Notes under the pieces: model-generated | Seen by the model: only the letters and a program-made list of their open reading frames with translations | Databases searched by the model: none | Told to the model about the DNA's origin: nothing | In this document: positions 36,747-41,072 of the stretch, in pieces | How the letters are laid out: the number at the start of each line of letters is the position of its first letter | Position numbering within the stretch: the first letter of the stretch is position 1 | Assembly (NCBI GenBank): GCA_012520815.1 | Contig: JAAYNM010000072.1 | Location: 1 to 41,159 of the forward strand | Source of the DNA: Clostridiales bacterium | GTDB lineage: Bacteria; Bacillota; Clostridia; Lachnospirales; Lachnospiraceae | Reading direction: 5' to 3' | Length of the DNA: 41,159 bases | Translations under genes and position numbers: made by a program

Positions 36747-36983
36747 AAAAAAGCCCCACATATACATAAGTATATGCGGGGCGATAATATACCGCGGTTC
36801 CACCCGTATGAATAGCTGATGCTAAACACTCATTGGACGATAACGGCGTCACCGGACTGGATTGGAGTCACTCAGAGGTAGTCTTCAGTAATATACGGGA
36901 TAAAATGCTCTCAGCAAATGCATTCCTCTCTGAATCCTTTAATACTACTTACTCGTCTCATCATCGTTTTATCTTTTTTATAA
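36747..36983 (-). promoter_or_regulatory. T-box riboswitch (threonine) upstream of thrS
   Basis: The leader senses uncharged tRNA-Thr and lets transcription continue into thrS. On the minus strand the T-box core GGGTGGAACCGCGG lies at 36792-36805. It is followed by a terminator hairpin of 13 bp with one G-U (arms at 36753-36782) and a run of T's (36747-36752). Stem I shows a CAGAG/CTCTG base pair with the segment GACTACC just before it, containing ACT and ACC, both threonine codons, as specifier candidates. The leader starts about 36983. It occupies most of the 36679-37189 gap. Confidence 0.93.
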
Positions 36984-36988
36984 AGTGG

Positions 36989-37016
36989 ATTATACCATTT
37001 TAAAAATCTTTGTCAA
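36989..37016 (-). promoter_or_regulatory. thrS promoter
   Basis: Minus strand: a perfect TTGACA (37011-37016), a 16-nt spacer and a perfect TATAAT (36989-36994) with an extended TGG. A very strong promoter driving the T-box leader. Confidence 0.9.
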
Positions 37017-37189: not shown

Positions 37190-37513
37190 ATGGCTAAAAA
37201 ATTCTTTAAATTTGTTACTTTTGCAGCTCTAGCAACTGCTGCATGTGCTGGTGCTGTTGCACTCTATAACATGTATAAGTCTGGCAGTGATGATTTTGAT
37301 GATTTCGACGATTTTGATGATGAAGATTTCGACGATGATTTCACAGACGATACAGAAGACAGAGGCTATACAGCAATTCCTTTAGAAACCGAAGTTGTTG
37401 ATTCTGTATTATCAGAAGAATCTGACGACACATCCAGCAATGCAAAGAACAAATCATCTAAGAAAAGTACCAAAGAAGAAGCAAAAGTAACATCTGAGAA
37501 CTCCGCTGAGTAA
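37190..37513 (+). CDS. Small membrane-anchored acidic protein, unknown function
   Basis: 107 residues; I do not recognise a family with certainty. A basic start (MAKKFFKF) is followed by one hydrophobic segment (~8-28), fitting a single membrane anchor or uncleaved signal. Residues ~33-55 are almost only Asp and Phe, built from repeats of DDF encoded by near-identical 9-nt units. The rest is Ser/Glu/Lys-rich and probably disordered. The gene stands alone between the thrS promoter and a bidirectional terminator, with its own promoter and a good AGAGG. The acidic repeat could bind cations or basic partners; that is speculation. The hydrophobic segment and ribosome-binding site support a real gene. 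Confidence 0.75.
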   Translation: MAKKFFKFVTFAALATAACAGAVALYNMYKSGSDDFDDFDDFDDEDFDDDFTDDTEDRGYTAIPLETEVVDSVLSEESDDTSSNAKNKSSKKSTKEEAKVTSENSAE

Positions 37514-37556: not shown

Positions 37557-37610
37557 AAAAAGGTCATATAGATTAGTGTTTATCTAATCAATATGACCTT
37601 TTATTTTTTA
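37557..37610. terminator. Bidirectional terminator between the acidic protein and DUF6062 genes
   Basis: AAAAGGTCATAT-A-GATTAG and CTAATC-A-ATATGACCTTTT pair over ~18 bp with one internal A-A mismatch and a 7-nt loop. A-run and T-run flanks serve both convergent genes. Confidence 0.88.
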
Positions 37611-37634: not shown

Positions 37635-38354
37635 TTATTGTTCCTCTTCTAGTACTAAACCATTTAGTTTTATTAATGCCCTAGGAACTGAATCTTTCGC
37701 ATTCTTCCATGGTTCATCCTTATATTTATAATCAAATTTGTTGATAAACCATGCTAAATCCTCATTGATACGTTGCATATTATCATTATAAAGTTTTGAA
37801 AGCACCTCTAGGAATTCTTCCTGTGTTTTTCCACTAAGTTCCTTCCCTGCCTTTTCAACAAGTAAACCAAAATGCTCCATACAAAAACCCTGTGAATTCA
37901 AGAATTTCTCTTTGAAACTTTCATCGCTTTTCCACAGGTAAAACACTGTAGCAATATATCTATTAAATACATCCTCTATCCTATTGCAAATAAAACAAGA
38001 ACTATTTAATTTCTGAATGTAATTTAACATTTCTGAATTATCGGCCTTTTTAAACATTCCACCCGCTTTAAGTGAAGCCGACATTTTTGATATATCTTTG
38101 TTTATTTTATCTGTATGAGTTTTTAGTATCAATGCCATACCCAAACGATTATTCATCTTCAAAAGTTTTTCACTATGAATCTTACAAAAGCCAGTAGCGT
38201 CCGTCATTGCCCGTATATCATCTTCCATATAACTAGGACCCATAGTAAATTCTAGAGCGCTTTTTTCCAACGTATGGTAGATTTCGCATATAGGGCACTC
38301 ACATTTTTTTTCAAATACCTCATTAACCGGTATAGTATATAATTTTTCAGCCAT
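37635..38354 (-). CDS. DUF6062 family protein with duplicated Cys/His motif
   Basis: 239 residues, function unknown. The opening MAEKLYTIPVNEVFE and the following CECPIC match the DUF6062 pattern known in Clostridia. Two copies of one motif are visible: C20-x2-C23-x33-GFC57-x2-H60 and C120-x2-C123-x34-GFC158-x2-H161. Each could hold one metal ion or cluster with a CCCH set. The regions between are helical; there is no signal peptide or membrane segment. AGAGGG lies 5 nt before the ATG. It follows the DUF2225 gene by 12 nt and ends the glnS operon. The family call is from memory; the repeat is read directly. Confidence 0.85.
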   Translation of the reverse strand: MAEKLYTIPVNEVFEKKCECPICEIYHTLEKSALEFTMGPSYMEDDIRAMTDATGFCKIHSEKLLKMNNRLGMALILKTHTDKINKDISKMSASLKAGGMFKKADNSEMLNYIQKLNSSCFICNRIEDVFNRYIATVFYLWKSDESFKEKFLNSQGFCMEHFGLLVEKAGKELSGKTQEEFLEVLSKLYNDNMQRINEDLAWFINKFDYKYKDEPWKNAKDSVPRALIKLNGLVLEEEQ

Positions 38355-38366
38355 ACTTACCCTCTC

Positions 38367-39218
38367 TTAAATTTTATTCTGCATTAGTTTTCTAAGTTCT
38401 CTAGCCTTATCCTTCAATTTAGGGGATGCCGCCTTTGAAACAACAAGATCAGATAAAAGTTTTAAAGATCTAGCATAGTCCTCACATTCGTATCCCAACG
38501 CTGAAACCAAGTAAATGTATGTCCATTCATCCATTCCACAAATCGGGAATATCTCCTTGCTCATAGCAACACTAAACCCTTCATAGGCCTTACTTATATA
38601 TTGCTTTTCTTCTGCCTTAAGAGTTTGAATGACCTCGCTTCTATTCTCAGTATCAGCTGGTATGTTTTCGGCCTTTCCTCTTTTCAGCCAAGCAAGTTTT
38701 AAACAAGTATATGCCTTTTCACTCGCTTTACCTTTTTTTACAAATGCATTGGCAAGAGCCAATTCATGCCTCATCACGGCTTCATCATACGAATAGCTAT
38801 CGCACTTATCATCCACACCCTTAAAAAATGGAGTAATATTGGTGCGTATAAGTTTTATTTGTGGTGCGGAAATATGGGTGAAAAATCTACTAAGGGACGC
38901 ATATCCACAATGATTACACACAATTGCATCATACTTTATCGGATCAACATCTTCATATCTTGGACGCAAATCAATATCTGCTCCAATCATTCTTGCCTTT
39001 CTAGCTCTAATGGACTTAACTTTAAAATCATAGTCACAAACTGGACATTTATAAGTTTTATCGAACACTGCATCTGCTTCTGATGCTTTCTTACTTTCTG
39101 TAGTTGTCTTTTGTAATAGATTATTTGCCTTTGGGGAATCTTCTTCATATAAATTCATATCCGAAAGCATACCTAAGCCTATTTTTTCAAGACTGGAGAA
39201 CATATTATTCTCTGCCAT
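38367..39218 (-). CDS. DUF2225 family zinc-ribbon/TPR-like protein
   Basis: 283 residues, function unknown. After a variable N-terminus (~1-52) comes a two-knuckle zinc-ribbon-like unit, C58-P-V-C61 and C101-N-H-C104, separated by the conserved KSIRARKARMIGADIDLRPRY. The C-terminal ~150 residues are helical and look TPR-like (MRHELALANAFVKKGK, YTCLKLAWLKRGK, YISKAYEGFSVAM). No signal or membrane segment. GAGGTG lies ~6 nt before the ATG. It sits 19 nt after glnS and 12 nt before the DUF6062 gene; both small proteins are Cys-rich, soluble and cotranscribed with a tRNA synthetase. Confidence 0.88.
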   Translation of the reverse strand: MAENNMFSSLEKIGLGMLSDMNLYEEDSPKANNLLQKTTTESKKASEADAVFDKTYKCPVCDYDFKVKSIRARKARMIGADIDLRPRYEDVDPIKYDAIVCNHCGYASLSRFFTHISAPQIKLIRTNITPFFKGVDDKCDSYSYDEAVMRHELALANAFVKKGKASEKAYTCLKLAWLKRGKAENIPADTENRSEVIQTLKAEEKQYISKAYEGFSVAMSKEIFPICGMDEWTYIYLVSALGYECEDYARSLKLLSDLVVSKAASPKLKDKARELRKLMQNKI

Positions 39219-39237: not shown

Positions 39238-40905
39238 CTATTTTTCGATTTTGAAAGAACTCTTTAATGAAACAATCCTGTTAAAAACTAGGTGTTTCGG
39301 GGTAGAATCTTTGCAATCTACACAGAAATATCCCTGACGTACAAACTGAAAGCTATCAAAAGCCTTTGCATCTGCAACTGTAGGCTCTATATAACATTTA
39401 TTTAGAATTTGTAATGAGTTTGGATTGAGATTGAGTGAACCATCTTCATTAAGTTTTCCTTTTTCTTCATCCACAATATTTTCATACAATCTAACTTCAG
39501 CTTCTACTGCTGTTTTAGCACAAACCCAATGAATAGTTCCCTTAACTTTTCTTCCTGTAAATCCACTACCGCTCTTTGTCTCTGGGTCATATGTGCAATG
39601 AACTTCAATTATCTTTCCATCTGCATCCTTAACAAAACTCTCACATTTCACAAAATACGCGTTCATAAGACGCACTTCATTTCCTGGAAAAAGTCTAAAA
39701 TACTTCTTAGGAGGTTCTTCCATAAAGTCATCTCTTTCAATATATAACTCTTTTCCAAATGGTATTTTACGTGAGCCAAGTTCTGGATTTTCCTGGTTAT
39801 TATTCGCATCCATATATTCGATAGTATCCTCTGGATAATTATCTATTATTAACTTAATCGGATCTAATACTGCCATAATTCTTGACTTCTTAAGTTTTAA
39901 ATCTTCTCTAATACAATACTCAAGCATAGCATAATCCACAGAGCTATTGGCCTTAGAAACACCACATAATTCAACAAAGTTTCTAATAGATTCTGGAGTA
40001 AATCCTCGTCTACGCAATGCACTAATTGAAACTAATCTTGGATCATCCCAACCATCAACAATGCCATCTTCAACCAACTTTTTAATATATCTCTTTCCTG
40101 TAATAACATTAGTAAGATATAATTTTGCAAATTCAATCTGTCTTGGCGGCATCTCATATTCTAACTCTCTTACAACCCAGTCATAAAGTGGTCTATGATC
40201 CTCGAATTCTAATGTACATATAGAATGTGTAACCTCTTCTATTGCATCTTCAATAGGATGGGCAAAATCATACATAGGATAAATGCACCACTTATCTCCT
40301 GTATTGTGATGAGTCATATGTGCAACTCTATAAATAATCGGATCTCTCATGTTCATATTTGGAGATGCCATATTAATCTTAGCTCGAAGAACTCTTTCTC
40401 CATCTTCACACTTACCTGCACGCATATCCTCAAAAAGAATCAGGTTTTCTTCAACTGTTCTCTCTCTATAAGGACTATCTTTACCCGGCTCGCTTAGTGT
40501 TCCTCTATACGCTCTGATTTCCTCAGGGTTTAAATCACACACATATGCTTTGCCCTTTTTTATAAGTTTTACCGCTGCTTCATACATCTGATCAAAATAA
40601 TTCGATGCAAAAAACAATCTATCTTCCCAATTGGCTCCTAACCATAAAACATCCTCTTTTATCGATTCAACAAATTCTGTCTTTTCTTTAGTAGGATTTG
40701 TATCGTCGAATCTCATATTGAATTTCCCGTTATACTTTTTAGCAAGTCCATAATTTAAAAGAATGGATTTAGCATGTCCTATATGAAGATATCCATTAGG
40801 TTCTGGTGGAAAACGTGTTGTGATATGATCATAAACGCCTTCTTCAATATCCTTTTCAATAGCCATTTCTATAAAATTTTTTGATACCACTTCTTTTTCT
40901 TCCAT
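39238..40905 (-). CDS. glnS: Glutaminyl-tRNA synthetase
   Basis: Charges tRNA-Gln directly with glutamine. About 555 residues, as in E. coli. The class I HIGH motif is intact ([19 protein letters not shown] at 41-44). The glutamine-pocket segment [11 protein letters not shown] and the [23 protein letters not shown] region are typical of GlnRS rather than GluRS. The KMSKS-like loop reads [11 protein letters not shown] (ITGKR at 268-272) where E. coli has VMSKRK. A beta-barrel anticodon-binding C-terminal half follows. The start at 40905 has AGGAGG 9 nt upstream; a 53-codon in-frame extension lacks any site. DUF2225 and DUF6062 genes follow in the same operon. Confidence 0.96.
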
Positions 40906-40949
40906 AGTGGTGTGCCTCCTTGTATCCATCAAAAGTCTAGTATTACAAT

Positions 40950-40978
40950 ATATTACAACATATTCATCAGTATTGCAA
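40950..40978 (-). promoter_or_regulatory. glnS promoter
   Basis: Minus strand: TTGCAA (40973-40978), a 17-nt spacer and TAATAT (40950-40955). The leader would be ~38 nt, with no T-box. Confidence 0.6.
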
Positions 40979-41045
40979 ATACTTGTTAAGTAAGTTTTCC
41001 CTTTAAATACACATATTGCGCAAGTTTTACCTAAATCCTTGAGTT

Positions 41046-41072
41046 TCCGCAGTTTTATCCACAACTGCGGAT
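41046..41072. promoter_or_regulatory. Inverted repeat enclosing a consensus DnaA box
   Basis: TCCGCAGTT and AACTGCGGA form a perfect 9-bp inverted repeat around TTATCCAC. The loop with its edge contains TTATCCACA (41055-41063), a perfect DnaA-box consensus on the plus strand. A T-rich stretch follows on the plus side. Its role is unknown; it lies ~150 nt upstream of glnS. Confidence 0.5.

Follow-up and report, generated by a model that had tools for sequence, protein, structure and literature searches.

Near one end of a 41,159-nt stretch of DNA from a member of the Lachnospiraceae (the window, here meaning the whole stretch that was analysed) lies a gene of the DUF6062 family, whose function is unassigned. 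Its product carries a twofold pattern of cysteines and a histidine, which the first-pass annotation took to mean an internal duplication and two CCCH sites for zinc or an iron–sulfur cluster. The locus raises two questions: whether the pattern represents duplicated metal sites, and what a protein built in this way might do in the cell.

The DUF6062 gene and its family

The open reading frame has an ATG start, and its coordinates, strand and gene identity had all been given correctly. The gene and the segments of its product are as follows.

37635..38354, minus strand: DUF6062 gene, 239 aa, two-unit protein modelled as all-helical (PF19538, E=8.9e-95; AlphaFold2 pLDDT 93.1, pTM 0.85)
38175..38297, minus strand: unit 1, C20-x2-C23-x33-C57-x2-H60, four residues invariant in 140/140 homologues
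37872..37997, minus strand: unit 2, C120-x2-C123-x34-C158-x2-H161, invariant in 140/140 and homologous to unit 1
37719..37748, minus strand: C-terminal FIxKxDYR segment, residues 203–212 (D208 96% and Y209 94% conserved)

The PF19538 match covers positions 1–240 of the 243 in the model and scores 317.2 bits against a curated cut-off of 27; DUF6062 is the sole family listed in the Pfam profile search. The window protein is an ordinary full-length member with all eight putative ligands present. An NCBIfam search gave nothing above cut-off, and weak matches to glutamine amidotransferase and MetN fall far under it and were discarded.

A genome survey, which covered Bacillota and Thermomicrobiota, finds PF19538 in 37 of 300 genomes sampled from the window's phylum (about 1 in 8) and also in Thermomicrobiota. 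Most clostridial carriers are anaerobes. No DUF6062 relatives were found in the viral contigs, phages and PHROGs searched, and PADLOC finds nothing and thus offers no evidence for a role in defence. A literature search found no paper naming the family. In one genome (G306, L141:4992-5804) a local inversion seemingly breaks the gene, whose middle reads from the other strand and whose front is joined to an enolase-like fragment; this may be an assembly error.

Two invariant Cys3His quartets

The residues read at first pass and their spacings of 33 and 34 are confirmed. It should be pointed out that these spacings count all residues between CxxC and the Cys of CxxH, the GF of GFCxxH included. Chance seldom produces such an arrangement: among 200,000 shuffles of the window protein, one or more copies of CxxC-x25..45-CxxH occur in 0.1%, two or more in 0.0015%. 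Conservation is, at the level of sequence, a stronger argument for the motif than these shuffle statistics. In an alignment of 32 homologues down to 16% identity, the invariant columns are exactly the eight proposed ligands, and all eight are intact in every one of 140 distinct full-length homologues, with zero Cys/His swaps. The alignment suggested in the first-pass annotation as a check thus finds the Cys and His positions conserved throughout. The next-best conserved positions are G55 (99%), D208, L71, Y209 and R48. An extra cysteine of the window protein, C18, is not conserved.

Quartets persist across spacings that range from 18 to about 70 residues, as a metal site predicts, and relatives with three or four units have extra complete quartets. 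The proposal of two CCCH sites is therefore strongly supported, and the protein very probably holds two metal sites. With three cysteines and one histidine per site, a metal site fits better than disulfides; a disulfide-only protein is rejected on account of the three cysteines per unit and the invariant histidine. A heme protein is rejected as well, as there is no CxxCH.

Internal duplication and variable copy number

The duplication is borne out by comparison of the two halves. Profiles of the N-half and C-half match with a probability of 97.2 and E=3.8e-11. When the eight ligands are masked to X, the match stands at E=1.7e-4 and a probability of 49, and 60 control shuffles of the columns of one half, with ligands fixed, reach a probability of 35 at most. 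If sets of unit 1 and unit 2 are aligned jointly, the quartet alone is invariant, and one single-unit profile detects both units separately in most carrying genomes. A tree built on 118 units, taken from 59 non-redundant proteins, splits them into a unit 1 clade and a unit 2 clade (support 91/88; 90% of bootstraps), which places the duplication before diversification of the sampled family. The tree rests on few columns, and only its deep split is used. A surviving one-unit ancestor is rejected, as none of the intact homologues read has fewer than two units.

Unit number varies among relatives. Three quartets are present in the Thermomicrobium roseum homologue TRD_RS12225 (L189:5908-6894), and four in proteins at three loci (L185, L200 and L198) from one family of the window's phylum. 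In these relatives 18 to 45 residues separate the Cys pairs. A FIxKxDYR or DW-like C-terminal segment is common to the two-, three- and four-unit types. Third and fourth units score weakly against the DUF6062 unit profiles (0–17 bits), and their homology therefore rests on quartet, order and context. Two other family members have an insertion of about 40 residues inside unit 2, with no ligand lost. One more gene of the four-unit type (L199, in G383) shows an apparent loss of frame after unit 2, possibly a sequencing error. In T. roseum (L189:5908-10955) the three-unit gene and a HEAT-repeat gene overlap in the start region of the latter; MoxR, DUF58 and DUF4129 genes come next.

Predicted structure and the proposed unit

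The AlphaFold2 model of the window protein, built with the 32-sequence alignment, is entirely helical, and in both units CxxC and CxxH each begin a helix. The C-half modelled alone reaches pLDDT 90.4 and pTM 0.75. The four ligands of each unit may converge in space. A Foldseek search of the PDB finds no significant match, the best E-values being 1.2 with the whole model and 2.6 with the C-half; the listed hits, among them 14-3-3 and a histidine kinase, all have E>1 and large rmsd and are meaningless. A viral structure library likewise yields no meaningful match. PDB sequence searches, whether run with the protein alone, the profile of the family or that of the unit, return only chance-level matches, i.e. 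a CSC1-like protein, the Rad50 hook, RING proteins and bS18, all of which were rejected.

RING domains, C2H2 fingers, the Rad50 zinc hook and zinc ribbons resemble DUF6062 in the use of CxxC plus a Cys/His pair as ligands; however, the matches to them are sub-threshold and confined to the CPxC stretch. In contrast to these small zinc motifs, the model has ligand pairs that begin helices, two helices in between, and an all-helical protein. CDGSH (mitoNEET-type) [2Fe-2S] proteins and Hsp33 share Cys-rich metal sites and a possible redox role, but neither is matched by profile, and ligand spacing and motif differ. The window protein has no match above curated cut-off to zinc-finger, CDGSH or Hsp33 families.

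These observations can be put together in a proposed unit some 45 residues long: CxxC would start one helix and CxxH a later one, and the two pairs would bind zinc jointly, as Zn(Cys)3His, and thereby staple the helices. Two such units, the products of a duplication that preceded diversification of the sampled family, would be followed by the C-terminal segment. The metal would most likely keep the fold rather than serve in catalysis. Zinc is the probable metal, with Zn(Cys)3His the likeliest form. T. roseum is an obligately aerobic thermophile, and presence of the family both there and in the mostly anaerobic Clostridia suits zinc.

Gene neighbourhood in the Lachnospiraceae

Three further features surround the gene in the window.

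38367..39218, minus strand: DUF2225 gene with a zinc-ribbon-like CxxC..CxxC start (PF09986, E=1.9e-55)
39238..41064, minus strand: glnS, glutamine--tRNA ligase (TIGR00440, E=6.2e-219)
37558..37602, unstranded: strong hairpin flanked by U-rich sequence, between DUF6062 and a convergent small ORF (-20 kcal/mol, z=-7.0)

The order is glnS, DUF2225, DUF6062, with glnS 19 bp upstream of DUF2225 and DUF2225 12 bp upstream of DUF6062. The latter two are probably co-transcribed, and in the window's lineage DUF6062 is probably expressed with both other genes. The true start of glnS probably lies downstream of the listed TTG. The hairpin is a probable bidirectional terminator.

Lachnospiraceae genes for DUF6062 have DUF2225, glnS and groESL among their neighbours. 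In 80 related loci from Lachnospiraceae-type MAGs and isolates, DUF2225 is found nearby in 57 and GlnRS in 49, and GroEL (59) and an OGG1-like glycosylase (18) were named by reading the sequence rather than with a profile library. Gene orientation varies, which points to a conserved neighbourhood rather than a fixed operon.

The small ORF convergent to DUF6062 (37190-37513, plus strand) has a hydrophobic start and a very acidic, Asp-rich tail (FDDFDDFDDEDFDDDFTDD). It has no NCBIfam match, and similar ORFs adjoin DUF6062 in L153, L156 and L158. Farther along, the thrS leader (36753-37016, minus strand) has a perfect TTGACA-16-TATAAT promoter with a TG extension (37016-36989), followed by a strong terminator-like hairpin at 36782-36753. 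From its sequence the leader looks like an attenuation region; no Rfam family matches it at gathering score.

A dynamin-linked cassette in deep branches

Distant DUF6062 genes are found in a different setting. A dynamin-family GTPase (PF00350) lies near them in 14 loci, which represent eight families; it shares their strand, is mostly the immediate neighbour, and is often the only strong dynamin of the genome. In 12 genomes, which were selected for this adjacency, all strong dynamins adjoin DUF6062. One genome (G168) has two DUF6062 genes paired with two dynamins.

A recurrent cassette has the order DUF6062, Na+/H+ exchanger (PF00999), UspA (PF00582), dynamin, and a final gene that encodes either a small protein with no Pfam match or a zinc-ribbon/HEAT protein (PF13646). 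The full order is present in L143, L220, L211 and L212, is rearranged in L125, and is partial in L122, L136, L127, L222, L138 and L189. UspA is present in six of the deep-branch loci. Cassette loci (L211:1001-5723, L212:4865-12550, L220:1241-5614, L143 and L125) sometimes also contain an MFS gene and a second DUF6062. Related proteins of about 110 aa (FEIsEEsleEIKELi..), with no Pfam match, are encoded beside DUF6062 or dynamin at L220:1241-1570 and L127:4585-4920. A literature search for the cassette found nothing relevant.

Members in the cassette are about 20–25% identical to the window protein. Whereas the distant genes directly adjoin bacterial dynamin-like GTPase genes, the window's gene does not, and the window's genome has no strong dynamin. 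The five cassette profiles have no match in the 80 Lachnospiraceae loci, which total 1.0 Mb. Among 44 other genomes with DUF6062, seven have a strong dynamin and none was seen adjoining DUF6062; strong dynamins are present in 6 of 40 genomes without DUF6062. Given these figures and the selection for adjacency, DUF6062 and dynamin are strongly linked among some family members, but the link is not obligatory. As the window gene lies outside the cassette, its function can only be inferred.

Possible roles of DUF6062

The metal may have a role other than a structural one. A purely structural zinc site would not usually go without a single Cys/His swap in 140 sequences, and this keeps iron–sulfur and redox-switch readings under consideration. 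CCCH ligand sets occur in iron–sulfur proteins, and together with the unswapped ligands and the anaerobic life of most clostridial carriers this could suggest that each of the two sites holds a cluster, the protein being an electron carrier or redox sensor. That is quite unlikely: DUF6062 matches no iron–sulfur family and occurs in T. roseum, an aerobe; none of the cassette neighbours found is a redox enzyme, and sites of this type are far more often Zn(Cys)3His. A redox switch, where oxidation frees zinc and alters the fold as in the chaperone Hsp33, would tie the protein to a stress response. Total invariance of the thiols is consistent with such a switch, as are GroEL near the Lachnospiraceae genes and UspA near the deep ones, but proximity to GroESL and UspA is indirect, there is no Hsp33 profile match, and the all-helical model is unlike Hsp33. 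A switch of this kind appears decidedly improbable.

The close spacing with glnS and DUF2225 in the window, and the frequency of DUF2225 and GlnRS in the related loci, can be looked at as signs of a translation-linked factor, e.g. a zinc protein that binds RNA or the ribosome, the cassette member then being a separate paralogue with another role. Some genomes hold both types, as a pair of paralogues (e.g. L120 and L143 in G298). However, DUF6062 matches no nucleic-acid-binding fold or family, the linked genes often converge instead of running in the same direction, and glnS is a housekeeping gene whose neighbours need not share its function; a role in translation is thus unlikely.

The reading preferred here is a modular, zinc-stapled helical protein that acts as a scaffold or adaptor and that in deep branches works with membrane or ion-stress machinery; as a whole it is put forward tentatively. 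The motif, its invariance, the duplication, the modularity, the helical model and the gene linkage are computed results; the binding and identity of the metal, the site geometry, the scaffold role and the partnership are inferred from them. A scaffold or adaptor role is itself a serious possibility. In deep branches the protein may partner the dynamin-like GTPase together with the Na+/H+ exchanger, UspA and the zinc-ribbon/HEAT protein. This dynamin partnership is quite possible for cassette members; for the window's protein its probability is low. A bolder proposal would have DUF6062 represent a new fold, a zinc-stapled helical repeat in two, three or four copies, that acts as a dedicated cytoplasmic adaptor or regulator of the dynamin-like GTPase in an undescribed membrane-stress cassette and was re-used in the Lachnospiraceae in another setting. 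We regard this as rather doubtful.

According to the sources searched, the ancient duplication, the variable copy number, the lack of a solved fold and the cassette are new, and the Pfam comment may already mention metal binding. The function of DUF6062 is unassigned and its fold unsolved. The duplicated metal quartets, the modular unit and the dynamin locus make this anonymous family testable.
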